Positions 3,001 through 52,151 of a stretch of 64,000 nt of DNA are shown here, in pieces. The number at the start of each line of letters is the position of its first letter. Position 1 is the stretch's first letter. The DNA is taken from the IMG/VR virus record IMGVR_UViG_3300030019_000028, positions 1-64,000 of that record; one strand, 5' to 3'. The notes beneath the pieces are model-generated. The model was given only the letters and a program-made list of their open reading frames with translations. It ran no database searches and had not been told where the DNA came from. The DNA is from a virus. Both the position numbers and the translations under genes were made by a program.

Positions 3001-3699
3001 AGCTCAATAAGATTACTAGGTAATGGTTTAGCACATTCAAATATTGCTTGGCAACCAAATGAAAGAACAATATCTTTTCATACATCAATAGCAGGATTGG
3101 GATTAGATGATTATTGGGGTGCTGTTAGTCTTTATGCAGGTGGCGTTATTACAACTAATTCATCTTTTAAAACGACTTCACCTGTTTCATTAGTCGGTAA
3201 TTATGATACAAATACAACAGAAGATAAATGTATTTGGACAATTGGAACAGGATGGAATACAGTTGCAACAATGTACGGTATTGGCTACGATTACGAAGTT
3301 CAATCAGGTTTTGGACATTCAATCTTTTTTAAAGCTGCTGGTAATAAGCATACTTGGATTAGTTTATCAACTGGTAATATCTATACAACTGGCTCATTTG
3401 TTGCAGGCGGTGAAATCACAGCCTATAGCGACAGACGTTTAAAATCAAACATTCAACCATTAACTTTAAGAGGTGATTTAAAACCAATGACATATGAAAA
3501 AGATGGTAAACAGTCAATTGGTTTTATTGCTCAGGACGTACAAGAACTTTATCCTGAGTTGGTGAAAGGTGAGGGTGAAGAAATGTTGAGTTTGAATTAT
3601 GGGCAATTAACAGCAGTTTTATATGCTGAGATATTAGAGTTAAAAAATAAGATTAAGAAACAAAATAAAAAACTTAAAAAATTAAAAAATGGAAAATGA
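1..3699 (+). CDS. Long tail fibre with collagen-like repeats and C-terminal peptidase S74 chaperone (5' end outside window)
   Basis: The reading frame is open from base 1 and has no convincing start in the window; the TTG at 262 is only an internal leucine, so at least 1232 residues of a longer protein are present. Ten Gly-X-Y triplets (292-381) form a collagen-like shaft, followed by glycine- and serine-rich beta-repeat sequence typical of trimeric phage fibres. The last ~90 residues match the intramolecular chaperone of peptidase S74 proteins: a Ser-Asp site (AYSDRRLKSNI, Ser codon at 3427), then GFIAQDVQELYPELV and a lysine-rich coiled-coil tail. In that family the domain trimerises the fibre and cuts itself off at the Ser. 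The role is host recognition at the virion surface. The half after about 1700 uses other synonymous codons than the first half, which suggests mosaic exchange. The 3' end overlaps the next gene by 11 bases. Confidence 0.9.
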   Translation, partial: SNPSVVIGLDKDGVLKSGEIGINGKSTLFTVYKGTLDVTSQYSLRLGSYSGVTLDILSNKLYISALSDFTPKSLLVTLTKGGVDVRSLFWSLSYSKDGQAGAPGNDGAPGKDGTNGSPGAKGDVGPSLTYEGEWSSTTHYYNRVTVRTVVKRTIASVITYYITKLSTTGNDIDFGTAQNPETHPALWETFAGQFTSVATGLLLAENAVVNIAANNTLYIGASGAAGISALGWKGDSNGFQSMRTDSGGITPLTILNVDGSFITQKGTIGGWTIDATSISSPGNLIKLNSAGHIDIQSTGYLNIGSNISLKGNSVSNFGGLNIGTDGTLYADKAGTRTFQISPNGDFLFNGNFYLSNQAGGNVTAAFSDLFDVILNPDGVTIKVLVSKVNFASKGDITAYQVGALDSTTNGVLALLTGTGPIYKPSDTEVGLRYDTGQFQLSGGNTLQIIPSVLIPQSALDLKLNVSLKGSANGLAELDASGFVKNTQLPSYVDDVLEFSTKPSFPTIGETGKIYVALDTNVTYRWSGSVYVVIGSDLALGETSASAYRGDRGKIAYDHTFLTTNPHGVTKAQVGLSLVDNTADSTKSVSYASAAGTATNWSGSGALGSAAYVNTSSFAPSGYGVGGSPVVTTDADNYKLTGDYYFVTPIAHSPQAYFQAHVMGSSNGDFAQIGVASTNEFHFRWGTGTWHKVWNDGNLNRSDVAFAASTGSFYSNVIVNSNAADIVALTLNANTNHGVRQNFYNQNASGLYNFQIGSNITANNAFEILASTALDGSGFSNVFKITNTGVATFASSINLGALQQIIWGGGYGSGKPLIEGSAAGMNVYPKGNLNDGIFNVIGTIRATVAASVGGFRVDGGNPPDGYGLEIYYDAASKETRFNALDRGITYTWHPMVFNASNYAFGGVAVFNNSVTVPVLQINTAAGANSQDAILLTKANGYGTAAIQQYYSTYLDYGLGLSIQGENKFTLNQLGNAVFNGSVAAKNLASVGDSGVAAGVASSSIRLLGNGLAHSNIAWQPNERTISFHTSIAGLGLDDYWGAVSLYAGGVITTNSSFKTTSPVSLVGNYDTNTTEDKCIWTIGTGWNTVATMYGIGYDYEVQSGFGHSIFFKAAGNKHTWISLSTGNIYTTGSFVAGGEITAYSDRRLKSNIQPLTLRGDLKPMTYEKDGKQSIGFIAQDVQELYPELVKGEGEEMLSLNYGQLTAVLYAEILELKNKIKKQNKKLKKLKNGK
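292..381 (+). repeat. Collagen-like Gly-X-Y coding repeat
   Basis: Ten consecutive glycine-initiated codon triplets, read as GQA GAP GND GAP GKD GTN and onward to GPS, lie inside the fibre gene. Such runs form triple-helical rods in phage fibres. Confidence 0.85.
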
Positions 3700-36390: not shown

Positions 36391-39300
36391 ATGGAAAATA
36401 CTAAAGATACCAATGATTGGGTAGCCGCTAATTTAGCATTACCTGGAGCTCCTATAGAGGAATTTAAACAGAATAATATCACTCCAGAGAATACTACTTT
36501 AAAAGACAAAGACTTCTATAAAGGGACAAAAACAATACAAGAAACTTTCACTAATCCCGAGAATGGTAAATTTGATGATGATAAATACAATCAATTTTAT
36601 AATTCTATGCTATTCACTTATAATGAATATGCTAATCAAGATGCAGTAGGTAAAGCAGATAAAGACTTTGACTACGCACCCTTTGACATGTTTGCACCGC
36701 AAAATGCCAAAAGAGTACAGGATTTATATAAAATAGAAAAAGTAAGAAATCCTTTTAAAACAAAAGTTGGTATTGAGGATTTTAATTATAAAAGTAAACC
36801 CGCACTTTCTTTAGAGGAAATAGCTCAGGATAATAATGTTAGAGACCATCTTACTGGAAAAGTATTAGATTGGACTCCTAATGATGATAGTGCCACAGGT
36901 ATTTTTGATTTTCTAAAAAGACCTACTTTAGTAGTGGGGCAATATGATGAAGATGGGGAACACTATGATGAGTTTGAAGGAAGAAAAATTAAACACAGAA
37001 AAGGCGATTATAAATTAGATGCAGATGGTAAACCTTATTTTGAAACTTTAGGAGATAGAGAAGTTTATAATAGAGAAGTTTTAAATTGGTCTGATACTCT
37101 AACAAAAGAAGGTACTTGGTTAAATAAGTATGACTTCATGGATTCAGATGGTTTAGATAAATCTCATATTGGCAGTGTTATGAAAATGGCTGCCAAAGTA
37201 ACTCCTTTATTCATACCTGGCGTGGGTGAAATTTATGCTGCTGGTATTTTAGGAGTAGATTTAATGAATGTAGTCCCAATTCTATTAAAAGCTGGAATAG
37301 GTTCTGTAATTGGAGATAGAGATACTGATAAAGATTACTGGAAAACAATGAATAAAGTACAAGGAGTTGGTAAAACTCTCTCTGCTAATTCTGTTTCAGA
37401 TTACGCTAAAACCAGTACATTTTCTTTTGAGAATATAAGTTCTATGTTGGGTGATGTATTTACACAATTATACACACAAAGAGCTATAGCCTCTATTCCT
37501 AAATATATAGGAATGAATAAAGCTAGTGTAGAACCTTTAAAAGAAGTAGCTGAGCATTTTGATGATGCTACTATAGCTAAAATATTTGAGGGGTCTCTTA
37601 CCACTGGTGAACGTCATATGATACTTGAAAAAGTACCAGAAGCTGCTAATTACATTGATAGGGCAGTTAAATCTGCTAAGTTATCTAGAGCACTAGCTAC
37701 AACTTATATGTCAGCTACGTCGGCTGCAGGTGTCGCAGATCAAGCCAAAGCAATAGGTCTTGATGAGAGAGACACAGGTCTTTTATATTTAGGAACTTCT
37801 TTAGGCTTTTTTGGTATGATGACTTCATTGCCAATTGGAGAATGGGCTTTGAAAGGAATTGGTCTTGAAGAAACTGGTTTATTAGTTAATAGAGGTATTA
37901 AAGATGCTGCACAACCTTTTGTAGAGGATCTTAAGAAACTAGGTAGTACTATGGTAAAAACACCAAGAGATTTTCAAAAAATCTTTAAAATAGGTAAAGC
38001 CATTGGTGATGCTGTAGGAAAAAAACTTAGTCATGTGGATGGTTATTTAGGAGCTATGGCTTCTGAGGGAACAGAAGAAGTCACAGAACAAGTTATGCAA
38101 GATTCTATTACTAATATTTATAATGGATTAGCTTCCTTAGGAATAACTTCAACTCAAGATCCTAAAAAACAGTTTACTTACGGAGATACCTCTGATATAG
38201 TTGCAAACTATGCCATGAACTTTTTTGGTGGTGTAGCAGGTGGAGCTATGTTTAGATTTCATGATCAAATTGCAAATGGCAGTAGAGAAAATGATGAATC
38301 TACTAAAGATATTTACTGGTTAATTAGAAATGGTTATAAAGATAAATTAGATGCTGCTACTAATAAATTAATTCAAAAGGGATACTTTGGAAGTACTACA
38401 TTAACAGCTGAACAGGTAGATATAGATCTTCCAGGAGCTGGGAGAAAGACAGTTATGCGTCCTAAAAGAGATGGTGATTTATCTCAAAATGAAGTTATAG
38501 GTAGAACTATGTTGGGGCTATTTAATAATGTCCAGAATCAAATATTTCAAGAAGGAATTCAACCTGATAGTGCTCTTACCAGAGTGCTTGATGCTAGATA
38601 CGATTTAATAGTAAAAGATTTAAAAGTGAATAGTTCTCTTTATGAGGACCATACTGCTCTTGTAAATGATATTTTAGGATTAAATAATGATATTGCTAAA
38701 GCTTTAGCAGTTCCAGCAGATTTAAACTCTCCTGAATCAACTGTATTAGCTACTGCAGAATCTGTAAATGCTATGCAGATAAAATTAGCAGAAAAAAGAG
38801 AAGCTTTAAAGTTGATTACTTCAGGAGAGGCCTTTCCCTCATATCAAAGCCAGGCTTTATTTAATATGAGTCAGGTACTTAATGGTGCTTTTGGAAATAC
38901 ATCTGCTGATGATTTAGCTTGGAATAAATATAAAAAACATTATAGAGGACTTAATGAAACTGAGAAGAAAGACATTGATGAAGAATATGTTGCTTGGAAA
39001 GCTGCTAATAAAAAAGATGCACTTAAATCGGGTTATCGTACATTTAATTTTCTTAATGAAAAATTCTCTCCTAGATTAGCAGAACTAGCTAAATATGCAG
39101 AACAAAGAAAAGGACACTATACATTAGTAGATGAATTAGGTAATAAAAATAAGTTTAATCTCTCTGCAAATACATTAGCTGAGATTAGCAAATCTAAAAG
39201 TTATTTAGGTAAAACTTTAACTGTTAGTGAAGCATTAAATGATGCTATTAAAGGAAAAAAAGATGTTAATTCTATTTTAAAAGCAGTGGATGATATTATG

Positions 39301-42300
39301 GGATTTGTTACCAATCCTAGTATTGACAGACTTGATAAGAATTTTACCAATGAAATGAGGGATGTATTTGACGGGCTCACTTTAAATGATTTAATTGGAG
39401 AAAATGCATCTTTATTTGATACATTAAGTGAGGATGAAAACTTTAATGAAGAGGGATTACCTGGAACTGATTATGACTTATTAAGTATAGATGATCTTTT
39501 AAATGAGAATCTTACAAGTGTTTTTAATAAACTAGACGCTGCTAAATTACATAATAAAGATAATCAACGTGCATTAAATACAATCACTAAAATCACTTCT
39601 TATATATTAGGTAATCCTAATGTTAATTTGATGAATAGTAAAAAAGCAGAATTTGAACAAGCTGTGCACGGAAGAACTATTAATACTTTAAATGAATTAT
39701 TAGACCAGTTTGATTTTTTACAAAATGGAACTAAATCTACTATTACTCAATTATTAACAAATGAGTTTGAAGCTTTAGGAAAAGTAAATGATATCAATGA
39801 TTATCAAATATATAATCCTAATACTATTGAAAATTTAGAAAGTGCTAAAGTATTACTTGAACGTTTACAAGCTTTAGTTATTGCCTCAACAGAATATGAT
39901 CATAAAAAACATGGTATCTCAGGTTATAATAGTATAATCAATAATACATTTAAAGGATCTCAATTAGGAATTATCACACAAGAACAAGCTACTCCTTTAT
40001 TAAAAGAAATTCAACAAATTAATGCAAAAATTGAATTATTTTTAACACTCTCTGCATTTAATAAAGAGAGTAAAGTGAAAAATAATATAGCTTCTGGTAT
40101 AAATATGGAGACTCTGTTCTTTGGACATTTACAAGAAGGTTCTTTTAGAAATATGTTGGATAGTTTAAAAATAGAAGAAGAAGAATTCATTACTCCTGAT
40201 ATGGCTAAATCTATCGAGGATGCTAAAACCATAAAAAGATCTTTAGAAATTAAACAATCTAAAGAAGGAGAACTTCCATCTTCAGATGAAGAAGTATTTC
40301 AATTTGAAGCAGAACGTTTAAAAATAAATAAAGTATTCTTTGAGAGAGTAAAAGAACTTAATTTAAAATATGGAGAAGATAAAATACACGAATTACTCTT
40401 TAATAATACGTTAGCTAAACAATTATTTCCAGTAGCACAAATGAGTCATGCTACTCCTACTAATTTTAATACTACTACAACTCAAATTCAACCTTTAGAT
40501 TTATTTATATGGTGGAATACAATGGTTACAGAGGATCCTGCAGAATTCTATACTGAATTAAGAGGAGATGAAACAGAACCAGGTAAATATGATGGAATAG
40601 AAACAAGTAAATATGTTCCATTTTATGCACAAGAGTATTCTGCTAAAATTATATTAAGTTTTCTTGATAATAAAAGTTGGATAAATAAATCTCTTAATTA
40701 TTTAGGAGGAGTTGATACAGAAGGCGCTGCTATTACTGGTACTTTTATGGGTAAATTACATGAAACCTTTAAAAATCTGGTATTTGTAAATGGTGTTCCT
40801 GGTGCTGGTAAATCATCTGCTGTTGGTTATACCGTAGCTAAAATATTGAAAAAGAGAGGTAAAACTTTCTGGACTGCTGGCGCTTATGATACACAAGCAA
40901 AACAATTGGAAACTCTATTAGAAAATCCAACTGCAAATGTTTCTTTTAATAAAACACGCTTATTAGCACAATTTCTTATTCCAGAAGCTGTTACAGAAAT
41001 TACTAATTCTAATGCTTCTTGTTTAGGCAAAGGAAGTATGACTGATATTGTAACTAAATTAGCTGAAAATAAATTAATTAAACTTAATAGAGTAGTAGAG
41101 AAACAAGAGGGAAAAGAATATGAAAAACTTAAGGTAGGTGAAATTAAACCAGAAGCATTCTTAGAAATAAACAGAAGTACTTTACCAGCAGCAATTTTTT
41201 TAGATGAGATTACTCATTTATCTATGATTGAATTAGAAGCATTACGTCAATCCTTAATACGTTTAGGAGAAGATGCTCCTCTTATAATAGGTTTAGGAGA
41301 TTCACTTCAAAATGGTTTTAGAATTGCAGGGGAAGATCATAATATGGATATGTTTAGAACTTGGAATACTCCAAAATTAGCCGGATCATTAAGAACATCT
41401 AATGATTTAAAGAATACTAATCTTATCAATACAGTTGCTAGATATAGTATGATTACAGAGGCTTATGATAAAGTATTTACTGAACAAAGTGTAGACTATG
41501 CTGCAGTTAAAGCTAATATTGAAAGCATGCATAATCCTGATGATGAATCTACTTGGTATAAATTAGGTCACCATACTAATGAGATGGGAATTGTATTTGG
41601 AGAAAAGGTATCTAATGCTTTAGGAGTGTCTAAAGATTTAAAAAATATCTTAGATAATACAATTGGAACTGTGGGATTTATCACTGATAATAATACCTCA
41701 GAAAATGAAATTTTATCTGGATTAACTCCTTCTCAAAAAAGTAGATTAGACATTAAAAGTATAACTGATGTACAAGGTTTAGAATATGATCACATAGTAA
41801 TAGATGTGGATTGGAATGCTTTAGCTCAAGATACTCCTATGGGTCCGCTTAACTTTATTTCAAATGTTTATACTTTAACTACTCGTTCTAGAGTTGGGAG
41901 TTTAATATTGGATAGAAATTTTAGTACCAACAATTATTTAGTAGTTAAATCTCAAGAAGCTAATCAAGTAATTGATGTTACTTTAGATAAAGAAATTCTT
42001 AAAAAATTTAAAGAAAAAAGAGTAGAAGATGTAACTAAATTAGCTAATTTTTTTGAAGGTACTACTTCTGTGACTCCTAAGATTAAATCTAAAGACGTTA
42101 CTCCAGCTATTCTTCCTGTATCTGCTACTGAAAGTTTTGCTCAAGAAATTAAGAGAATGGACGAGGAAATTGAGGCAGCTGAAGCTGGTAATAGTTCTAC
42201 AAATAGACAAATGCCCACATTAGATCTAGCTCAAAAAAATACTCATTTAATGACTTACCCTTACTATGAGAGAGTAGGAGTTCCTGGAGAAGATGCTCTT

Positions 42301-44547
42301 ATCTTTGGTTTAGAAGATGGAGAAAAACCTGATTTAAAATTCCTTATGGATATTAAAAACTCTGTATTCTATGGGGCAGGTGAAGATAAAATTATGGAAA
42401 TCCTTAAAAATAAAGGAATTGATAATATTGATAGTTTAAAAGTAGTTGTGAGAGCTTCTATGTATAATCCTGTTACCGATACTGACAATTCTAAAGTTGT
42501 AAGTGGTAAAAGGGATGCTGATCAAGAGTTAACTACAAAAGATGTGTTTTTAAGGACGGCTTTAAGAATTGAACGTTCTGATAATACTGGAAAGTTATCG
42601 CCCTTTTATATTACTTTAGGTGTATTTTCTTCTCCTAAAAGTACTTCAAAATATGATTATAAAAATGATGCTAAATTAAGTGATGTACTTAAAGATGTTA
42701 CTGCTAAAGCAGAATTAGCTTTAAAAACTTCACCTAGTGTTGATTTAACAATTAATCATAGTAATCCTCTTGAGTTATTAAAATATACTACTAATATTCA
42801 ACTTGATTATTTAGAAAATCCAATTAGTTTTAAAGATTTTAAAGAAGATCTTAGTAGATCAGCTGTAGTTTCTCCTATTCATATTTTTACTGGACATAAC
42901 AGTGCAGTAGCAGGCAGTCCCTCACAAAATCAGAGATTAAATGAGTGGATTAAAAAGGGAAATAACTCAGCTAAAGAAAGATCATTGGCCGGGAGGGCAG
43001 TAGTATTTGTATCTTTTGATAATAATTTAAAGTCTAGTGAATTAGCAGATAAATTTGCAGAAGAGATTATGACTAATAGTCCTAATCCTAGAGTAAAAGC
43101 TGTGATGTTAAATTCTAAAGGAACTGATCCTAAAATTTGGTTCGAAAATGCTTGGAATACTTTAGCAGATGCTAAAAAGAAACCTACTGAAAGAGTTGCG
43201 ATGGGAACTTTAGCATCTCAACATATGGCTACTTTTATGGCTAGTACTATTAAAATGATGGCAGACTCTTCTAAATATACAGGAAAAACAGAGATCATTA
43301 AGACTATTGCAAAGACTATAATTGAGAGACTTGGTACTGGTGAGGGTAATATGAATATTTTAGAAATAGATAGAAATGCAGAAGAAGCATTTAGATGTAA
43401 AGTTAAAGCTTATACGGATGATAAAATTAAAAATCCAGAAGAGTACTTAGCCTCAGCTGCTGCTGGTTATCTTAAATTAAAACCAAATCAAAGAATCTCT
43501 GCTTTTAACTTTAACCATACTTATAGATTATTAGTAGGCATGGGTATAGCAATGAATGGAGGTTTACACTCTGAAAGTGCAGAAGTTAAGCAGTATTTTG
43601 AACCTATTTCTAAATATACAACTCAATATGGAGAATTTTTAGAAGAATTTTATAGTTTACTTAGAAAGGAATTTGTACATGGTATATTTTCACATCCTTC
43701 TTATAATATTAGAGGGCCACGTACTAATAATGATTATGCTCAAATAGTAGAAAATGAAGAGGATGATTTTGAAGTAACAGCTCGTGCTACACTTCCTAAT
43801 TCACTTTTAAATCTTCAATTAGTTATGGATAATAAACAGTCTTTAAATAAAGAACAAACTGAAAAATCTAGAAATTTATCAAGTATCTCTGATTATATAA
43901 CTTTAAGACAAAATAGTATGTCTACAGAAATGATTGAGGAATTTATTAGAGGAGCTGGTGCCATTAGAAACTTATATGATGTAGGAAAAGAAACCTCTGT
44001 TGCTGCAATTATGTCAAATATTGACGCTCTTTATGATAAATTATCAAAAGCAGTGTATACTACCTCTAATTTAATAGACGGTATTAATAAAATGCAATGG
44101 ACTAATACTGAAGTCTCTCAAAAAGATGTAAGTAATCCTGAGAATAAAATTCAGAATAATGGGGATGGTTCTTTTGTAGTTACAGGAAATAATGGTAAAT
44201 TTGACTTCGAAATAAAATATAATATGAATGAATCAATCGAAGAAAATAAAATGAAAATCACTACTAATGAAAGACCTATTCCTTTAGAAGAAGTTGGTAA
44301 CCTTATACAAAAAACTACTGATTTAGTAAATAAATTTAAAATGCAATACTCAGACATTATTCCTGAGGATATATTTGCAAATGTATTAAGTGCTCTATCA
44401 ACAGGAACAAGAGAAATAGTACCAGGAAGTGCAATGCAAATGGCATTTGCACAATTATCTGCACAAGCTCTTACATTAGATGATGAAGCATTACTAAAAA
44501 CTTTACATGACTACACTAATACAAAAGACATCAATACTTGTAACTAA
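36391..44547 (+). CDS. Giant polyvalent protein (2718 residues) with embedded SF1-type helicase core
   Basis: The first ~1450 residues are mostly helical with hydrophobic stretches near 270-309 (VTPLFIPGVGEIYAAGILGV), 462-484 (GLLYLGTSLGFFGMMTSLPIG) and about 607 (NFFGGVAGGAMF). A superfamily 1 helicase core follows: Walker A GVPGAGKSS (Lys1474), Walker B FLDEITHL (Asp1605-Glu1606), a GLGDSLQ motif III about 30 residues later, motif V-like DVQGLEYDHIVID (from 1793) and motif VI-like TLTTRSRVG (Arg1832, Arg1834). Such cores couple ATP hydrolysis to translocation on nucleic acid. The final ~870 residues are not recognised. Its stop overlaps the start of the RNA polymerase gene by one base. I infer that it is packaged and injected, and that the helicase acts on entering phage DNA or on host nucleic acid. 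Confidence 0.75.
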   Translation: MENTKDTNDWVAANLALPGAPIEEFKQNNITPENTTLKDKDFYKGTKTIQETFTNPENGKFDDDKYNQFYNSMLFTYNEYANQDAVGKADKDFDYAPFDMFAPQNAKRVQDLYKIEKVRNPFKTKVGIEDFNYKSKPALSLEEIAQDNNVRDHLTGKVLDWTPNDDSATGIFDFLKRPTLVVGQYDEDGEHYDEFEGRKIKHRKGDYKLDADGKPYFETLGDREVYNREVLNWSDTLTKEGTWLNKYDFMDSDGLDKSHIGSVMKMAAKVTPLFIPGVGEIYAAGILGVDLMNVVPILLKAGIGSVIGDRDTDKDYWKTMNKVQGVGKTLSANSVSDYAKTSTFSFENISSMLGDVFTQLYTQRAIASIPKYIGMNKASVEPLKEVAEHFDDATIAKIFEGSLTTGERHMILEKVPEAANYIDRAVKSAKLSRALATTYMSATSAAGVADQAKAIGLDERDTGLLYLGTSLGFFGMMTSLPIGEWALKGIGLEETGLLVNRGIKDAAQPFVEDLKKLGSTMVKTPRDFQKIFKIGKAIGDAVGKKLSHVDGYLGAMASEGTEEVTEQVMQDSITNIYNGLASLGITSTQDPKKQFTYGDTSDIVANYAMNFFGGVAGGAMFRFHDQIANGSRENDESTKDIYWLIRNGYKDKLDAATNKLIQKGYFGSTTLTAEQVDIDLPGAGRKTVMRPKRDGDLSQNEVIGRTMLGLFNNVQNQIFQEGIQPDSALTRVLDARYDLIVKDLKVNSSLYEDHTALVNDILGLNNDIAKALAVPADLNSPESTVLATAESVNAMQIKLAEKREALKLITSGEAFPSYQSQALFNMSQVLNGAFGNTSADDLAWNKYKKHYRGLNETEKKDIDEEYVAWKAANKKDALKSGYRTFNFLNEKFSPRLAELAKYAEQRKGHYTLVDELGNKNKFNLSANTLAEISKSKSYLGKTLTVSEALNDAIKGKKDVNSILKAVDDIMGFVTNPSIDRLDKNFTNEMRDVFDGLTLNDLIGENASLFDTLSEDENFNEEGLPGTDYDLLSIDDLLNENLTSVFNKLDAAKLHNKDNQRALNTITKITSYILGNPNVNLMNSKKAEFEQAVHGRTINTLNELLDQFDFLQNGTKSTITQLLTNEFEALGKVNDINDYQIYNPNTIENLESAKVLLERLQALVIASTEYDHKKHGISGYNSIINNTFKGSQLGIITQEQATPLLKEIQQINAKIELFLTLSAFNKESKVKNNIASGINMETLFFGHLQEGSFRNMLDSLKIEEEEFITPDMAKSIEDAKTIKRSLEIKQSKEGELPSSDEEVFQFEAERLKINKVFFERVKELNLKYGEDKIHELLFNNTLAKQLFPVAQMSHATPTNFNTTTTQIQPLDLFIWWNTMVTEDPAEFYTELRGDETEPGKYDGIETSKYVPFYAQEYSAKIILSFLDNKSWINKSLNYLGGVDTEGAAITGTFMGKLHETFKNLVFVNGVPGAGKSSAVGYTVAKILKKRGKTFWTAGAYDTQAKQLETLLENPTANVSFNKTRLLAQFLIPEAVTEITNSNASCLGKGSMTDIVTKLAENKLIKLNRVVEKQEGKEYEKLKVGEIKPEAFLEINRSTLPAAIFLDEITHLSMIELEALRQSLIRLGEDAPLIIGLGDSLQNGFRIAGEDHNMDMFRTWNTPKLAGSLRTSNDLKNTNLINTVARYSMITEAYDKVFTEQSVDYAAVKANIESMHNPDDESTWYKLGHHTNEMGIVFGEKVSNALGVSKDLKNILDNTIGTVGFITDNNTSENEILSGLTPSQKSRLDIKSITDVQGLEYDHIVIDVDWNALAQDTPMGPLNFISNVYTLTTRSRVGSLILDRNFSTNNYLVVKSQEANQVIDVTLDKEILKKFKEKRVEDVTKLANFFEGTTSVTPKIKSKDVTPAILPVSATESFAQEIKRMDEEIEAAEAGNSSTNRQMPTLDLAQKNTHLMTYPYYERVGVPGEDALIFGLEDGEKPDLKFLMDIKNSVFYGAGEDKIMEILKNKGIDNIDSLKVVVRASMYNPVTDTDNSKVVSGKRDADQELTTKDVFLRTALRIERSDNTGKLSPFYITLGVFSSPKSTSKYDYKNDAKLSDVLKDVTAKAELALKTSPSVDLTINHSNPLELLKYTTNIQLDYLENPISFKDFKEDLSRSAVVSPIHIFTGHNSAVAGSPSQNQRLNEWIKKGNNSAKERSLAGRAVVFVSFDNNLKSSELADKFAEEIMTNSPNPRVKAVMLNSKGTDPKIWFENAWNTLADAKKKPTERVAMGTLASQHMATFMASTIKMMADSSKYTGKTEIIKTIAKTIIERLGTGEGNMNILEIDRNAEEAFRCKVKAYTDDKIKNPEEYLASAAAGYLKLKPNQRISAFNFNHTYRLLVGMGIAMNGGLHSESAEVKQYFEPISKYTTQYGEFLEEFYSLLRKEFVHGIFSHPSYNIRGPRTNNDYAQIVENEEDDFEVTARATLPNSLLNLQLVMDNKQSLNKEQTEKSRNLSSISDYITLRQNSMSTEMIEEFIRGAGAIRNLYDVGKETSVAAIMSNIDALYDKLSKAVYTTSNLIDGINKMQWTNTEVSQKDVSNPENKIQNNGDGSFVVTGNNGKFDFEIKYNMNESIEENKMKITTNERPIPLEEVGNLIQKTTDLVNKFKMQYSDIIPEDIFANVLSALSTGTREIVPGSAMQMAFAQLSAQALTLDDEALLKTLHDYTNTKDINTCN

Positions 44548-47500
44548 TGAGAAATAACTGCGGTTTAATATCAACGAACGCGTCCATCGAACTGATGGGC
44601 GTGTTTAATAATTTTATAAAAACACTCTATAAAAAAGGAGCAAAAAATAACTATGCAAGATTAGAGGATAAAATTGCAGAATATCTATATGACAAACATA
44701 GGAAAGACGACAAAAATGATGCTTTAACTCCTGAGGAGAGTCATTTTATTGAACAACAGTTTATTTTATATACAGCTGCTGTTAAACCTATTTTAACTAA
44801 AAGTAGAATAGATACAAAATTTGCAGAAAAAATATGGGGAGATTCTACAGCCGTTAAACCTATAGAATTGTTTTTGGCTGATGTACAGAAAGCATTAATA
44901 GAGGGGAGTGAAACTACATTAACAGAAAAAGTTAAAAATTTATATGAAGTTTCTCCAGAAGATACTTCTTTAATTCCAGCTCCTAAAGAAGAATTAATTC
45001 CAACACCTCCATTAGAAGGTGAAACTAAAATTACTAAATTCACAGATATTAGTAATAAAATGGATTTAAAAGAAGTTTTTGCAAATGCAAATACTGCTTA
45101 TTTATTATTAGAGAGAAGAGTTTCTAATCATATTGTTAGGAATTATTTAATCAATCAAGAAACAGGAGTGTATAACTCTTCAAGTAATTCTGTTGATAAA
45201 TCTGTAAAAGCTAATAAAACAAGAATCTATAAAGAACTTATTAAGAATTTTGAGCAAAAGGGAATTAAATTTGTTGATAGTGAGAGAGATTATTACGTTA
45301 ATGGAAGAATTAATGATAACATTAAGAGTGTATTAGATAGAATTGCTGATTATTATAAAAAATATGATGGGACTGGTATAACTAATATCAAATTAGAAGA
45401 ATGGACACAAAATAATATAAATGAGATTTCTGATTTTATAAATTTTGTTACTATCTCTAACTTTGATAATTTGCTTTTATCTTATGGGAAAGGTATATTC
45501 AAAATTTCTGATAGTTACCTAAACTCAGCTAATGAAAAGTATGATGAACCTAAATATGTTTTAGATATTGCTAGTAATATCAATGATAGTATATTTCAAA
45601 CAGGTGAATATAACTTATCTGATGAACAATCATCATTGTTTAAGATGTTTATCTCATCTATGCCTTCTGTTACATTTGATAAACAAGTTTCTCATGATAA
45701 AGAAATTGATTTGAATACTGTAAATACAGTAATGGCTAAATTATTACATGGAAATCTATTAGAAGGGGCTCCTATATATGATCCAACAAATAGTATGGAA
45801 AGTATGAAAGCTTTACTTGAATTTGCCATCAATAATTTTACAGGAGAAGGTAAAAAAATAAAGAGTTTTGATAAAATTGAAAAAGACACTTTACTCTCAG
45901 TTTATATGTACTTTTTCAGAAATAATGATGAACTTACTACTAAACATCCTAAAGTTCTATTAAATAACTCATTAAGATCAGCTATACAAGTAGCTTATGG
46001 TAATGATACTGAATCTGGATTTAAAAATATCCCCTCATTTTATCATTTAGCCTCAAATAGTGAAGTTATTTCTGGGATGGACTACTTTAATGTTATAGTA
46101 AGTAACTTTGATAAAACATACTTAAATGAGTACACAGAGTATACCTACGATAAAGACCGAGGAACCATTACTGTAAATAGTCCTACTGAAAGATTAATTA
46201 ATAGTTCAGAAATTCAATTCACTAATAATTTAAATAATTTTATTAATCAAGAGTTTAATAAGACTTTCTTAGAAAATAGATATAAAGATGTTACTATTGA
46301 AGGTAAAGAGTCTGATATGCCTACAGTAAGATTTGAATTATCTAAAGGAGTATTTATTACAGCTAATTTAGCAAACGGTGGTATCTCAATTACAGATGGT
46401 ATTAAAACTACTGATTCTAAAGCACTTGATTTTAAAATAAGTCCTATACAAGAACAAAAATTAGTAGAAATTTTAAATAAAATCTTACCCCAATTACAAT
46501 TAAGAGATGATAAAGGAAATGACTTTTATTATCCTCTTTTTACTCAAGTATTTTCTCCTACTCTGGATGATCATGTAGAAGCATTAACAGCTCTAGCTAA
46601 AGTGGCTGGATATGTAGCTTATACTTCATCTATGGTTAATGAAATAGGTAAAGATGGTTTATTAGGTAGTAAATGGATGAAAAATTTTGGAGCAGACAAG
46701 TCACCTTATATTAAAGATGATGAGGAGTTTTCTATTGCCAGAATGTTTCCAGGTTATAGTGATATAGCTAAAAATATTGGTAAAGGACTCTCTATTATTA
46801 ATGGTGAAACACATAAAGCTGTAATTAAAGTAGGTAATGTTACTGTTCCTACAATTGGAGAAGTAAGACATTTATATGCTCTTCCTAAATGGAGGAATTG
46901 GTTAATCAAGCAAAATGGTAATAAATTAACTGGAATGCCTATTGCTAGTAATCTATTTATGAGAAATCCTGATTTTTTAAAAGGATTTAAAATTAGAAGT
47001 TTTGTAAAATCAGGTGATAATGTGAAACATTCCTCAGAGATGGCACCACTTGAAATAGCAACTACTTTCATAATGCATGACTATATAGCAGCTGCTAATA
47101 AATACAATGAAGTTTACATTCAATCTACAGTATTCGCTGATAAAAATAGCCATAATAGTGTAGTTGTAAAACTAAATGAAGAAATTCAAATCCCAGGAAT
47201 TACTAATAAAATCTCTCTCTCAAATGTAACAGCTACTGAATTAAAACAAGCTGCTTTTTTGAATAATGCTACTTATTATAAAGCTATCTCAGATAAGTTA
47301 ACTTCTACTTATATACCAGTGCTACAGACTCTATTGCCTGGGACTACAATTGAATCTACTTTACAAGGAGTTCATGATGCCATGAGCAAAGTTCAAGAAC
47401 AGGATTTTAGAAATGCTTTTTATAAACATTATAATGGAAGTGAGTATATTATTGAAGATTTAGGAATAGAAAAGAATAAAAAAGATGGCACATGTGGTTT

Positions 47501-50500
47501 ATCTCCTTTATTAATTTACTATACTGAAATGTATACTGATAAATCAAAAACTACTCCTGCTTTTACAAAAATGATGAAAGCTAACGAATTGCTTTTTGCT
47601 AAAAGTTTAAACTCATATAATATGAATATTGAGTACATGGATGGTAAAGGAAGTCTTAATCCTTTATTTATTCGTAAGGGTACCTCAACTATTTTTGATA
47701 CTTTAAAAATAGCAGATGAAAAAACAGGAGATAGAATTACTAAAGAGAATTTTGAAAAAAATTGGGTAGATCCTTCTACAAAATACTTAACCATTTATAA
47801 AGGAGGAGAATTAAATCCTTTGCTTAGACATTATTTTTACATGGATAACTATATTTCTGAGAATTTATCTCAAGCTAGTATGGGGACTATTCATAATCAT
47901 CCATTTAAAGGAAAAGCTAAGGCTAAACCTGGTACTTTTGAGTTCTTTACTGAAATAGAATCTGCTAAAACAGCTGCTATGTATAAAAGACAACTTCAAG
48001 GTACTCCCATGAAACCTTTGAATTTAAATTTAATCAATGGTGTACGTGAAACTATGAGTTCTGTATTTTTAACTGATATAAATAATCCAGTTTATACTAG
48101 TTTTGGAATTAAAGATAAGATGACAGTAACTGACGGTTCAGCGCAAGTAACCCCTTTACAATATATTCTACAAAACAATTCATTACTAGAAAATTCAGTT
48201 GGTCCTAATGCTAAGATGTTTAGTTTATTTATGGATCCAAAGTATAACTCATATGGTTTAACTAAATATGCAGAATTTGGTATTACTAATGAAATGATTC
48301 AAAATTCTAAAGGTTCTACTTATGATCTTATGAATTTAATAGAAAAAAGTTACAGGTATAAACCTTTTACTAGGAGTATTACTATTGAGGAATTTAATCC
48401 TAATACATTTGATTATGATAAAACTTTAGTACAATATACTCCAGATATCTTAAAAGATTTTAAGGGTAATAATATAACTATTGAAACAATTGCTCCTAAT
48501 GGATTATTCTATGTAAAAAATGATCAAGTATATGAGATTAAATCTTTAACAAGAGGTACTACTATAACTCAACCTTCTGGAGAAGTAATAGTAGCAAAAG
48601 GAGAATCAAATGATTTTCAGGTGCAGGCTATAAATTTAACCACTGGAATGGCCGAAGTTCCTAAATCTGTTAAAATAAATGATTTATTTGATTTATGGCA
48701 AGCTTTGGGGGCCGAAAATTCAGTATCTATTGATAAAGAAGGACAATATTCTGGTAGTAGAAATCCTGGAGAGACATTAAACTTTACTGAATCTGATGCT
48801 TCTCATTATGCTTTAGCAGAATTTGTAAATAGAGTAGGCCATAAAATGGATTCTAATCAAAAGGTTAATTTAATCAATAAATATGGTTTAAGAGATCTAT
48901 CAGATCCACATACTAATGCTATATACTCTAAAGAAACTGAGGCTAATTTTGTAAAATTATTTCCAGAGTTTAAAGTAAATAAAACTGACTTTAAAGTACA
49001 CAATCAGACAAATACATGGCAACCTTTAAAAGCAATGTTCATTGGAAAATATATCCACACATCTGCACAAAAGTCAGGTGCTATAAATGTGCATAATATC
49101 GATGATGTGTATAACCAAACAAAACCAATTTATCCAGTAGATGTTCCAGCAATTTCTACAGGATTACTTATGACTACAGAGCATGAAGTAGAAGGCTCAG
49201 AGATCACTAAAATGACTCAAATCTATAGTGCTATAGAATTTATGGGTGATTCACATAATGTGTCTAGTGGGGTTTATAATGCCATTGCTGACGTCTTAAA
49301 TATTAAACTTAAATCTTTATTTGATGCTACTGAATTCCAAAATGTAAATAAAGAGGCATTATATAAAGAAGTTACTGACAATTTGATTCGCACATTTAAC
49401 TCTAAAGACCAACAATCTATTGGTAAGTTCATTGGACAGATGGTAGAAAGAAATTCAGACGAGATAAAAGCATTTACAGCTCAAGCCAAAGAAGCCGAAG
49501 CTATCACAGAAGATGCTACAGGTGAAGAGCCTGGAGTAGCTAGTACTATGAGTATGAGTATAGTTAGAGATGGTAAAAGAATGCCTTTTAGTACTTATAT
49601 GTACAGTTCTTTTATATCTCTTATGAGTAATTTTTTAAATAAAGAGGCTATTAAAGATAAACAGTCTGGCATTGCCTCTCCTATTAAACCTTCTGGAGGT
49701 ATGCTTCAAGTGTATGATTCAGAAGATATTAATGGTAAAAAAGATGTACTTTTAAGAAAAAATTACGATAAATTAAATGCTGCTGAAAATATAGTGGAAG
49801 CCCCAATTACTATTGGAGAGATTTCTTTAAATGATTGGGTAAGAGAAAGTGATGGTAAAACTATGAAAGAGTATCAAGTAAATACTCCAGAAAAGTTAAT
49901 TGCACTTAAAAGAAAGGATACAGGAGAATCTGTTCCAGTTCAAACTTTTAAAGGATTTTGGACAAGAGGTACAGTACAAAATGATACTAATAATGTTTAT
50001 CTATTTGGCGATAATACTAACGATAGGATGGTTACTAAATATATTCCTGGGGCAACCCAAGCTGTTATTAGAGGACTTCCTAATGCTATAGGAATTGATA
50101 CAAAGAGAGATAGAGGTACTACAAGTAAATCATTCTTAACAGATGCTGATCTTCCTTGGTTTAAATCACATGTAGACGAGCAATTAAAGAAAGCACAAGC
50201 TTTAGGTAAACCTATTATCCTTCCAGAAGATGGAATTGGAACTGGAAAAGCTATGTTAAAAGAGAAAGCTCCTGCATTATTTGCATACTTAAATGAGGCT
50301 CTATCTAAATTAGAAACAACTAAACCTTCAAAAGTAAAATTTGTAAAATTATATGGTAAACCAAGAGATTTACAACCACCACTTTTAACTTTTAAAGTTA
50401 TAGGTAAAGGAATGAAAGAATCTCCTATGTCTATTTATGAATTACCTGATTTTGCAATGGTTTATGACTATAAAGAAATTTTGGAAGATAAAAAACCCAT

Positions 50501-52151
50501 GACTGCAGAGTTAGGTTCTTTTTTAACTAAGAGATTTCCAGGAGAAAATATTGAGAAATTAATGAAGAATACCAAATTAGTAAACAATGCTTTACGAGTT
50601 AATATTCAAAGTATTTTTAATAGAATTGATACTCAACATAATGTCTTAATTAACGGAAAAGAGTATCCAGTAGAAGTGTTAACACGTTCTTCTGGGGAAG
50701 CCATTGGCCCAAATATTTATAGAACTATGTTTGACTTACCTAAGGGAACTTCAGTTAATCAAGTTACTGAAGATTTCTTATTTCAAAGAATGTATGATAA
50801 ATCTAAACCTGCTATCAATGATAAAAGTTGTTATGCTTACGTACAGAATCCAAATGGAAATCATATCTACATTTTTAATAAAGTTCCAACTGAATTTACA
50901 GAATATACTCAAGGTAAACAGATAAAAGAAATTAATGGACAGTATTGGGTAGTAGATGGTAATGGTGATCCCAGATATATAGCCCCATCAGGTCTTACAG
51001 GTACAGCACTTATTGGTGGAAAAAGAGTAGAAGTAATTGTCACTAATGATTTACCAAGTCTTCAAAAAACTCTTCAAGAGACTAAAAATTATGACAAAAG
51101 TTTACAAACTGGTAGAATTTATAATGTCAACGAAAATAATGATGCTATTCTTAAAGAAGAGTGTGCTATTCTAGCTAAAAAAAGATTTTCTAGTTTTAGA
51201 ACCACTTTAAATTATATTGCAGCACGTATTCCCGGACAAGGTTTCCAATCATTTACTGATTTAAAACTTGTAGACTTTATTCATACAGAAGGTAATACAG
51301 TTATGACTAACCATTTTACTTCCTGGTTAAAAGGAGAGGATTATGATATTGATAAAGGATTCTGGCTTGGATTAACTCTTAAAAATGGAATTGTAGTAGG
51401 TTGGGCTAATGAATTTGATTATAGCTCAGAAGAATCTCTTATAGCTTCTATGTCTCTGCCTTATCCTGATAAAAAATGGAGAAGTTTAGACACAGAAGAT
51501 AGTATTGATGATCCTGCAGAAGTTACACTTACTAACGAAGAAGTAGATAGCCTATTTGAAGAAAATATGTCCAAATTACGTAGTGATACTTTAGTTAAAT
51601 TAGGTAATATTGATAATTATAATTTCTTAGGAGAAAATCACACAGCTTATGAAGTACAAGAAAAAGTTAATGAATACTTTATGCAAACTATACCTTTAAA
51701 TGCTATGGAAGATGCTGTTAAGAATAAAATGGCTTGGGGTATTAGAGATGCTGTAGTTAAACCTGTAAACTTAAATCATACAGAGTCTCCTATTGGAATG
51801 GAAGAACTTAGAGATGAAGCCACGGAAGCTAATAGAGTTGTAAGTAATAATAATCCAATGAGTAAGGCTGATTTTCAATATGCAAACATGGTTGGTAAGA
51901 ATGTAATTGGTATTGCAGCTGTTGCATTAAAGATTTGGAGTGCTGCTTCTTTCTACGGAAATGATAAAGTAAAAAAGGGAGAATTTGCTTCTATATTAAT
52001 GGATAAAAATCTCAAAATTAACGGAAAAAATCGTTATATTGCGAGCCAAGCAAACCTTAACTTTAGTGCGAAGGCTTCTACTGTAATTACAGATGAATAT
52101 ATTGCTGATCAAGTAGGTAAAAATAATATTGAGGAAAATTGTAATGGATAA
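44547..52151 (+). CDS. Giant RNA polymerase protein (2534 residues), DxDxD catalytic barrel, plus LFGDN/GIGTG domain
   Basis: Near the C-terminus is the signature of the two-barrel RNA polymerase/RNA-silencing polymerase superfamily: ARIPGQGFQSF (Arg2227) followed by GEDYDIDKGF with Asp2265, Asp2267 and Asp2269, which in related enzymes hold the catalytic magnesium. Single-chain polymerases of this type are known in crAss-like phages and are packaged to transcribe early genes. Upstream, about residues 1810-1925, is an embedded domain with LFGDN, QAVIRGLPNAIGIDTKR and LPEDGIGTGKAML, a pattern I know from stand-alone phage and bacterial proteins of unknown function (probably DUF7831). The first ~1800 residues have no motif I recognise. 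The gene overlaps its predecessor by one base and its successor by eight. Confidence 0.8.
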   Translation: MRNNCGLISTNASIELMGVFNNFIKTLYKKGAKNNYARLEDKIAEYLYDKHRKDDKNDALTPEESHFIEQQFILYTAAVKPILTKSRIDTKFAEKIWGDSTAVKPIELFLADVQKALIEGSETTLTEKVKNLYEVSPEDTSLIPAPKEELIPTPPLEGETKITKFTDISNKMDLKEVFANANTAYLLLERRVSNHIVRNYLINQETGVYNSSSNSVDKSVKANKTRIYKELIKNFEQKGIKFVDSERDYYVNGRINDNIKSVLDRIADYYKKYDGTGITNIKLEEWTQNNINEISDFINFVTISNFDNLLLSYGKGIFKISDSYLNSANEKYDEPKYVLDIASNINDSIFQTGEYNLSDEQSSLFKMFISSMPSVTFDKQVSHDKEIDLNTVNTVMAKLLHGNLLEGAPIYDPTNSMESMKALLEFAINNFTGEGKKIKSFDKIEKDTLLSVYMYFFRNNDELTTKHPKVLLNNSLRSAIQVAYGNDTESGFKNIPSFYHLASNSEVISGMDYFNVIVSNFDKTYLNEYTEYTYDKDRGTITVNSPTERLINSSEIQFTNNLNNFINQEFNKTFLENRYKDVTIEGKESDMPTVRFELSKGVFITANLANGGISITDGIKTTDSKALDFKISPIQEQKLVEILNKILPQLQLRDDKGNDFYYPLFTQVFSPTLDDHVEALTALAKVAGYVAYTSSMVNEIGKDGLLGSKWMKNFGADKSPYIKDDEEFSIARMFPGYSDIAKNIGKGLSIINGETHKAVIKVGNVTVPTIGEVRHLYALPKWRNWLIKQNGNKLTGMPIASNLFMRNPDFLKGFKIRSFVKSGDNVKHSSEMAPLEIATTFIMHDYIAAANKYNEVYIQSTVFADKNSHNSVVVKLNEEIQIPGITNKISLSNVTATELKQAAFLNNATYYKAISDKLTSTYIPVLQTLLPGTTIESTLQGVHDAMSKVQEQDFRNAFYKHYNGSEYIIEDLGIEKNKKDGTCGLSPLLIYYTEMYTDKSKTTPAFTKMMKANELLFAKSLNSYNMNIEYMDGKGSLNPLFIRKGTSTIFDTLKIADEKTGDRITKENFEKNWVDPSTKYLTIYKGGELNPLLRHYFYMDNYISENLSQASMGTIHNHPFKGKAKAKPGTFEFFTEIESAKTAAMYKRQLQGTPMKPLNLNLINGVRETMSSVFLTDINNPVYTSFGIKDKMTVTDGSAQVTPLQYILQNNSLLENSVGPNAKMFSLFMDPKYNSYGLTKYAEFGITNEMIQNSKGSTYDLMNLIEKSYRYKPFTRSITIEEFNPNTFDYDKTLVQYTPDILKDFKGNNITIETIAPNGLFYVKNDQVYEIKSLTRGTTITQPSGEVIVAKGESNDFQVQAINLTTGMAEVPKSVKINDLFDLWQALGAENSVSIDKEGQYSGSRNPGETLNFTESDASHYALAEFVNRVGHKMDSNQKVNLINKYGLRDLSDPHTNAIYSKETEANFVKLFPEFKVNKTDFKVHNQTNTWQPLKAMFIGKYIHTSAQKSGAINVHNIDDVYNQTKPIYPVDVPAISTGLLMTTEHEVEGSEITKMTQIYSAIEFMGDSHNVSSGVYNAIADVLNIKLKSLFDATEFQNVNKEALYKEVTDNLIRTFNSKDQQSIGKFIGQMVERNSDEIKAFTAQAKEAEAITEDATGEEPGVASTMSMSIVRDGKRMPFSTYMYSSFISLMSNFLNKEAIKDKQSGIASPIKPSGGMLQVYDSEDINGKKDVLLRKNYDKLNAAENIVEAPITIGEISLNDWVRESDGKTMKEYQVNTPEKLIALKRKDTGESVPVQTFKGFWTRGTVQNDTNNVYLFGDNTNDRMVTKYIPGATQAVIRGLPNAIGIDTKRDRGTTSKSFLTDADLPWFKSHVDEQLKKAQALGKPIILPEDGIGTGKAMLKEKAPALFAYLNEALSKLETTKPSKVKFVKLYGKPRDLQPPLLTFKVIGKGMKESPMSIYELPDFAMVYDYKEILEDKKPMTAELGSFLTKRFPGENIEKLMKNTKLVNNALRVNIQSIFNRIDTQHNVLINGKEYPVEVLTRSSGEAIGPNIYRTMFDLPKGTSVNQVTEDFLFQRMYDKSKPAINDKSCYAYVQNPNGNHIYIFNKVPTEFTEYTQGKQIKEINGQYWVVDGNGDPRYIAPSGLTGTALIGGKRVEVIVTNDLPSLQKTLQETKNYDKSLQTGRIYNVNENNDAILKEECAILAKKRFSSFRTTLNYIAARIPGQGFQSFTDLKLVDFIHTEGNTVMTNHFTSWLKGEDYDIDKGFWLGLTLKNGIVVGWANEFDYSSEESLIASMSLPYPDKKWRSLDTEDSIDDPAEVTLTNEEVDSLFEENMSKLRSDTLVKLGNIDNYNFLGENHTAYEVQEKVNEYFMQTIPLNAMEDAVKNKMAWGIRDAVVKPVNLNHTESPIGMEELRDEATEANRVVSNNNPMSKADFQYANMVGKNVIGIAAVALKIWSAASFYGNDKVKKGEFASILMDKNLKINGKNRYIASQANLNFSAKASTVITDEYIADQVGKNNIEENCNG

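Follow-up and report, generated by a model that had tools for sequence, protein, structure and literature searches.

Large RNA polymerases are described as being carried in the virions of crAss-like phages (PMC10172136, PMC10136315), with lengths of up to about 6000 amino acids (PMC10136315), and cargo proteins are reported for phiCrAss001 (PMC10172136). A separate body of work concerns ADP-ribose. NADAR enzymes are reported to undo the ADP-ribosylation of guanosine in nucleic acids, and the DNA-modifying phage defence DarTG has macrodomain or NADAR proteins as its antitoxins (PMC11833690, PMC11481870). In the account of Iyer et al. (2022), viral Macro, NADAR, SLOG and DUF4326 domains co-occur, and RNA viruses place Macro and NADAR in polyproteins with the polymerase, whereas viral versions elsewhere are typically stand-alone (PMC9503650). 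The two subjects may meet in the stretch analysed here (the window), 64,000 nucleotides that form positions 1 to 64,000 of the 66,997-base IMG/VR virus record IMGVR_UViG_3300030019_000028, in which a 2534-amino-acid chain, a crAss-like RNA polymerase, carries a DUF7831 domain. The polymerase is compared below with the product of phi14:2 gene g066, annotated as a catalytic RNA polymerase subunit with a record note that the annotation comes from proteomics; we take this to be the protein named gp66.

As in the RNA virus polyproteins (PMC9503650), what may be an ADP-ribose-type domain shares one chain with a viral polymerase; unlike them, the window belongs to a double-stranded DNA phage and its polymerase is of the double-psi barrel type. 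Polyvalent proteins, as described in PMC5512222, are also very long and mix enzymatic domains, and one of the DUF7831-bearing proteins discussed below (locus L095) has a sub-threshold ART-PolyVal match; unlike them, the window chain has a polymerase as its core and shows the polymerase block and DUF7831 only. The domain family and the logic of such effectors were known, and the physical context is new. UniProt naming already tags DUF7831 in the crAss-like protein cr131_1. A search of the open-licence literature found no paper naming DUF7831; among the matches listed, none joined crAss-like phages with DprA, NADAR, SLOG or macro domains, which is weak evidence, and the main text of the viral ADP-ribose survey has no occurrence of crAss (PMC9503650).

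The open reading frame (ORF; 44547..52151, + strand) is free of stops over its 2534 codons. Residues 1800-1917 (49944..50297, + strand) match Pfam family PF25176, DUF7831, at E 9.3e-25, scoring 87.2 bits against a cut-off of 27 and covering positions 2-117 of the 118 in the profile; a 148-amino-acid segment searched alone gave E 1.9e-26, and the domain was recovered at the same place in G000 (E 7.8e-28). The match is far above chance and these residues are a DUF7831 domain. An earlier, sequence-only reading of the window had put forward this family as the probable one; the name proved right on comparison with the profile of the stand-alone family, and the stand-alone relatives that it mentioned from phages and bacteria were recovered by sequence searches. 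Scanned against Pfam at E<=1, the 2534-amino-acid chain gave no family besides DUF7831.

Conserved motifs were taken from our own alignment, not from a published definition. Alignment A2 holds 103 of the 137 loci together with the window, and a further alignment, A6, holds 95 sequences; the 34 loci outside A2 were near-duplicates, fragments, broken frames (L071, L089, L120, L157 and L136, the last with a stop), L034, which has an insert, and some left out for redundancy only. The insert in L034 amounts to 60-odd residues (ORF residues 3066-3127) within DUF7831, with the TK motif on one side and the conserved Asp on the other. On the + strand of the window the domain contains LFGDN (residues 1819-1823; 50001..50015), in which F, G, D and N are invariant or >=90% conserved among the 104 aligned members; TQAVIRGLPNAIGIDTKR (residues 1837-1854; 50055..50108), with conserved Q, A, R, N, G, T and K and an altered GxGGQA loop; the LPEDGIGTG loop (residues 1892-1900; 50220..50246), with the P and the G.GTG pattern conserved; and C-terminal helices (residues 1904-1923; 50256..50315), placed by the AlphaFold model at model residues 114-117 and 119-133. 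These motifs, and the DYDID of the polymerase, all lie where the sequence-only reading had quoted them. Of the columns that are invariant or nearly so in the family, 24 in all, the window domain retains 21, keeping GDN, QA, NA.G..TK and P..G.GTG and missing the two GxGGQA-loop glycines and the P at 1856. It shares GDN, NA.G..TK, P..G.GTG and a full-length profile match with the stand-alone PF25176 proteins of phages and bacteria, and differs from them in being embedded in a polymerase, in the altered GxGGQA and in extra residues between GDN and TQA.

That the chain is a polymerase is argued by its active-site block, RIPGQG...GEDYDID (residues 2227-2269; 51225..51353, + strand), which corresponds to RIPNQG...GSDFDIDK in gp66. 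At this block, 60 columns of a window-group profile aligned with the gp66 group (hhalign E 2.6e-6, probability 89%), and in the same comparison a second region upstream of the block gave no alignment. A hidden Markov model (HMM) of the motif, made from six crAss-like polymerases with the window excluded, matched the window chain at E 1.7e-8 (hmmsearch), against E 0.68 for the top scorer among 760 shuffled proteins. A search for the pattern R.P, 25-60 residues, G.D.D[GIVL]D found it in 14 of 38 real proteins, a set that includes the window chain twice (as L026 and itself), gp66 and three other reference polymerases, and in none of 1900 shuffles. Between gp66 and the window chain, plain BLASTP gave no significant match (E 0.53). 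The portal protein of the window matched that of cr50_1 (E 3e-22) and other crAss-like portals, its closest matches being unannotated gut-phage records (MT835470, E 8e-168), and by this gene, the only one examined for the purpose, the virus would belong to the Crassvirales. On this evidence the chain is a crAss-like RNA polymerase, as the sequence-only reading had it. DYDID (residues 2265-2269) follows the end of the Pfam match by 348 residues, in agreement with the spacing of about 340 that had been given.

The domain is accessory, not a core part of the polymerase, in this sample. DUF7831 was absent at E<=1 from gp66, from L013 and from the five ORF pieces of L012 that were searched. L013 is a 3401-amino-acid chain (TAG read as Q) from human-gut phage record MT835492, with 30% identity to the window chain in a global alignment and three collinear BLAST segments (best E 1e-30), one preceding and one following the position of the window domain; it has no Pfam family at E<=0.1, and its segment equivalent to the window domain is also without DUF7831. 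BLASTP with gp66 did find DUF7831-bearing giant proteins (L034, 3e-49; L039, 3e-43; L042, 3e-40; L029, 4e-25; L028, 2.5e-10), and in these the domain is found elsewhere. In the window it occupies residues 1801-1923, ahead of the active site at 2265; in L029 it is N-terminal (59-179), in L028 it lies past the active site at ~1420 (1758-1879), and in L034 (3004-3193), L039 (3006-3120) and L042 it is C-terminal. In the Oafivirinae phages cr130_1 and cr272_1 the polymerase chain itself has a diverged copy, past the active site, and in cr131_1 the copy is in the following ORF, to which part of the split active-site motif also belongs. Because homologues either lack the segment or carry the domain elsewhere, it is not a fixed part of the polymerase, and an integral place in the barrel, the sequence-only reading's own alternative, is rejected. 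The several positions imply that the domain was acquired several times or moved. As to whether other crAss-like polymerases share the insert, the answer is divided: some carry the domain, at other positions, and gp66 and L013 are without it.

Two further features of these polymerases were seen. In cr131_1 (L183 8275-9069) the active-site motif is divided between two ORFs that a 729-bp ORF separates. The motif HMM matches the tail of the first ORF and the head of the second, an arrangement like that of an intron or homing insertion. In L028, a P-loop kinase (AAA_33, residues 1461-1573, E 1.4e-15) starts ~40 residues past the DFDID of the polymerase.

The domain is also found in a DNA polymerase. 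In L072 (2710-5829), a family-B DNA polymerase by Pfam, DUF7831 (370-485) stands between the exonuclease (215-324) and the palm (616-930), and in L073 and L102, members of the same BLAST cluster, it is at about the same place by BLAST only. In IMG/VR, 217 relatives were found and the closest 79 loci were fetched; the match lay in an ORF of >600 amino acids in 33 of the 79 and in one of 231-600 in two, L071 being excluded from these classes as its open frame stops where the match starts. In bacteria the corresponding counts were 0 of 58 for >600 amino acids and 2 of 58 for >230. Similarity to gp66 or the motif profile identifies eight of the 33 giants as polymerases (L026, L027, L033, L028, L029, L034, L039 and L042). 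L065 and L095 were in register with the active-site block in alignments that were not significant, and are counted as suggestive only. L045 and L060 have in common a ~600-residue region with an RxP...DxDGD block that could mark a separate RNA polymerase type; they too are counted as suggestive only, because hhalign gave no alignment of this region with the gp66 group and no PDB chain aligned with it at E<=1. Among named phages, gp66 similarity was found in 139 records and crAss-type DUF7831 in at least three, the search with the window domain covering the best 60 of 100 records. Giant viruses also have DUF7831, namely Tupanvirus, Hyperionvirus and Yasminevirus (BFVD A0A6N1NMG5, A0A3G5ADK8 and A0A5K0U977).

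The partners of DUF7831 in long chains offer a first indication of what it may do. A Pfam scan with E limits from 0.01 to 1, which covered 20 of the 33 giants and among them the window chain (L026), gave ADP-ribose or nucleotide-glycosyl partners in six (L037, L035, L064, L049, L054 and L095) and listed none in the other 14. L037 has a 2OG-Fe(II) oxygenase (1343-1474), DUF7831 (1500-1604) and NADAR (1631-1725); L035 has NADAR, then DUF7831; and in L064 a cpYpsA SLOG domain (1017-1174) is followed after 50 residues by DUF7831 (1225-1335). The cpYpsA match is well above the curated cut-off in L064 and just above it in L049. L037, L054 and L064 form one BLAST cluster. The cr130_1 polymerase has NADAR (E 4.6e-7, sub-cut-off) 37 residues ahead of a DUF7831 that is itself just above its cut-off (28.5 bits), and the cr126_1 polymerase (L181 6322-13530) carries a NADAR match above cut-off at its N-terminus and is without DUF7831. 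NADAR or SLOG accordingly adjoins DUF7831 in several proteins unrelated to one another, and domains of the ADP-ribose network have entered crAss-like RNA polymerases on more than one occasion, at varying positions. In bacteria, protein L159 has DUF7831 followed by a YAcAr SLOG domain above cut-off, and SLOG-like and DUF4326-like genes neighboured six and five of the 58 loci respectively, all acidobacterial; bacterial neighbour labels, here and below, are our own reading of the sequences and do not come from database matches. The cr126_1 polymerase gene is named DUF1768 domain-containing protein in its record. The polymerase genes of cr130_1 and cr113_1 are labelled DprA-like in their records, an identity that is unsupported, Pfam showing no DprA at E<=0.05.

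Structure prediction gave a second indication. AlphaFold modelled the window domain with a predicted local distance difference test score (pLDDT) of 88.9 and a predicted template modelling score (pTM) of 0.82, and a stand-alone DUF7831 protein of Hymenobacter with 96.1 and 0.89 as an alpha/beta fold with four strands. Foldseek against a viral library returned nine matches at E<=0.001: six named DUF7831 (from three giant viruses, two phages and cr131_1), cr130_1, cr272_1 and one nameless. When the first 1000 Foldseek chains were re-ranked by VIA-align, a tool that asks for Z 8, the first six rows for the stand-alone model were all macro domains with Z 5.1-5.7 and 105-109 of 129 residues aligned, led by Getah virus macro (Z 5.7, 108 aligned, 3.9 A) and followed by TARG1/C6orf130 (5.5, 5.5 and 5.3) and chikungunya nsP3 macro (5.2 and 5.1), the next row being CbiL (4.9). 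For the window model, macro folds took nine of the first 18 rows, made up of eight OSH55 designed hydrolases (Z 4.9 and down), checked to be macro-domain scaffolds, and C6orf130 (3.9), and one further row was a coronavirus Nsp3 fragment. The P..G.GTG loop of DUF7831 looks like the GLGTG loop that some bacterial macro proteins have; searches for GLGTG-type macro homologues turned up few, in 3 of 148 and 1 of 142 genomes, counts that include the genome of the query.

We propose, tentatively and with somewhat less than even confidence, that DUF7831 in these phages is a mobile, macro-like domain that processes ADP-ribose and is carried by an injected polymerase against ADP-ribose-based defence of the host. 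The domain is tethered to an RNA polymerase of the kind that crAss-like phages pack in the virion; it would be injected with it, most likely to remove or neutralize ADP-ribose adducts or signals that the host aims at the incoming phage. Covalent linkage would guarantee one copy of the domain for each injected polymerase, acting at the place and time of first transcription and ahead of any phage gene expression. The placement within the polymerase is observed directly; delivery with the virion is suggested by analogy with phi14:2 and phiCrAss001, and the ADP-ribose chemistry, binding and most likely hydrolysis of a substrate that contains ADP-ribose, is proposed with moderate confidence. The nucleotide-linked activity put forward in the sequence-only reading is thereby supported only indirectly, by the macro-like model and the ADP-ribose-network partners; its family assignment, embedding and stand-alone relatives are upheld. 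Should this chemistry be correct, phage transcription brings its own counter-defence in its first wave, and part of the size of crAss-like polymerases would be explained. The proposal also provides a testable hypothesis for the DUF7831 family, which could be assayed as a 129-amino-acid stand-alone bacterial protein.

The presence of the domain in both RNA and DNA polymerases leans towards adducts as the target. A narrower form of the proposal, which we consider unlikely, is that DUF7831 is a divergent, minimal macro-type nucleic-acid de-ADP-ribosylase, repeatedly wired into the polymerases of large DNA phages, where it would erase DarT-like ADP-ribose lesions from the template as the polymerase moves along it. 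The polymerases concerned would be the injected RNA polymerase and the family-B DNA polymerase, sometimes with NADAR alongside; such a counter-defence, coupled to polymerases, would have arisen convergently with the Macro and NADAR domains of RNA virus polyproteins. The argument of Iyer et al. (2022) that soluble ADP-ribose derivatives are the main target of phage Macro, NADAR and SLOG domains (PMC9503650) leans the other way, towards soluble signals. Another possibility, a serious one that is nevertheless probably wrong, is that the domain acts on small soluble ADP-ribose derivatives, such as cyclic ADP-ribose (cADPR) signals or ADP-ribose-1''-phosphate from RNA repair, and that fusion is a ride into the cell. 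RNA-repair or NAD genes do lie near stand-alone copies in three of ten annotated phage regions, RpAliso and MD18 having a tRNA nucleotidyltransferase and Cp1R7A-A1 a tRNA splicing ligase along with genes for NAD salvage. However, a soluble target leaves unexplained the repeated placement in polymerases and the position between exonuclease and palm in the DNA polymerase.

Several observations weigh against ADP-ribose processing by a mobile, carried domain. The residues between the domain-flanking segments number 475 in L013 and 487 in the window, which speaks against a clean insertion and means that L013 has other, unrecognized sequence there. Many of the partners are under the Pfam cut-off (NADAR in L035, L037 and cr130_1, Nuc_deoxyrib_tr in L054 and ART-PolyVal in L095), and the partner frequency is that of DUF7831-bearing giants only. 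The commonest bacterial neighbours are not ADP-ribose genes but an SSB-like gene (20 loci) and an RNase-H-like gene (16), and the Hymenobacter neighbours, in up to 10 loci, are apparent housekeeping genes. All five crAss-type copies are without the GxGGQA glycines, two near-invariant positions in the family, and have R in place of the conserved P at 1856; in cr130_1 GIGTG is gone as well. In macro domains a GxG loop is reported to bind substrate (PMC9503650). If the glycine-rich loop of DUF7831 does so too, the crAss-type domain, having lost it, may be altered, with another substrate, or inactive.

These losses, with the insert inside the L034 domain, would fit a non-enzymatic module that binds a ligand or nucleic acid, or a degenerate passenger, regulating or stabilizing the polymerase. 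This explanation seems unlikely. The five crAss-type copies keep the family residue at 20 of 21 tabulated key positions, and the position of the domain along the chain varies, unlike that of a regulatory element. For one pair of sequences, with synonymous differences of 0.47-0.56 and so near saturation, the ratio of non-synonymous to synonymous substitution (dN/dS) was 0.19 for the domain, 0.10 for the N-terminal flank and 0.17 for the C-terminal flank; because the value for the domain reflects purifying selection, it argues that some function is probably retained.

The remaining points against the proposal concern the fold. No PDB structure matched the window or stand-alone model at E<=0.001 in Foldseek, and the top rows were protein phosphatases (E 0.03 and up). 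In VIA-align, rows 1-3 for the window model were non-macro (TsaC2 and a vaccinia polymerase chain, Z 5.1-4.9), and the Z of 5.1-5.7 for the stand-alone model is under the tool's 8, unrelated rows lying within 1 of it. Against nine macro sequences, profile comparison was weak or nil; the best single comparison gave E 0.0017 with a probability of 15%, and in controls on a three-sequence set 1 of 150 column shuffles reached that level and the reversed profile came near it (score 23.5 against 26.6). PDB sequence searches with the domain and its profiles gave chance-level matches only, e.g. triosephosphate isomerase, and macro domains have six strands (PMC9503650) where the DUF7831 model has four. 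With Z values that fall short of the safe level and do not stand clear of unrelated rows, a macro-like fold is only the leading guess, held with moderate confidence. The phosphatase rows of Foldseek, together with phosphatases seen among the VIA-align rows, could point to a nucleotide- or phosphate-processing enzyme of another fold, unconnected to ADP-ribose. We regard this as highly unlikely, as the Foldseek rows have TM-scores of about 0.24-0.37 and root-mean-square deviations of mostly 6-11 A, there is no cysteine in the invariant or nearly invariant columns of the family alignment, and VIA-align of the better model puts macro domains first. An assembly or gene-calling artefact joining two genes is ruled out for practical purposes, the same fusion being stop-free in other contigs, L001 at 100% and L002 and the L006/L033 contig at 83% across the full protein. 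The protein is present at 100% on a 115.6-kb contig, and a relative with 83% identity over its full length has DUF7831 at the same place.

Elsewhere in the window, Rfam and tRNA scans gave no matches. The neighbouring ORF (36391-44547; 2718 amino acids) has weak, sub-threshold P-loop matches near residue 1460 (E 0.016), and a tail-fibre-like protein of 1145 amino acids (262-3699) has a PHROG peptidase match at residues 379-446.

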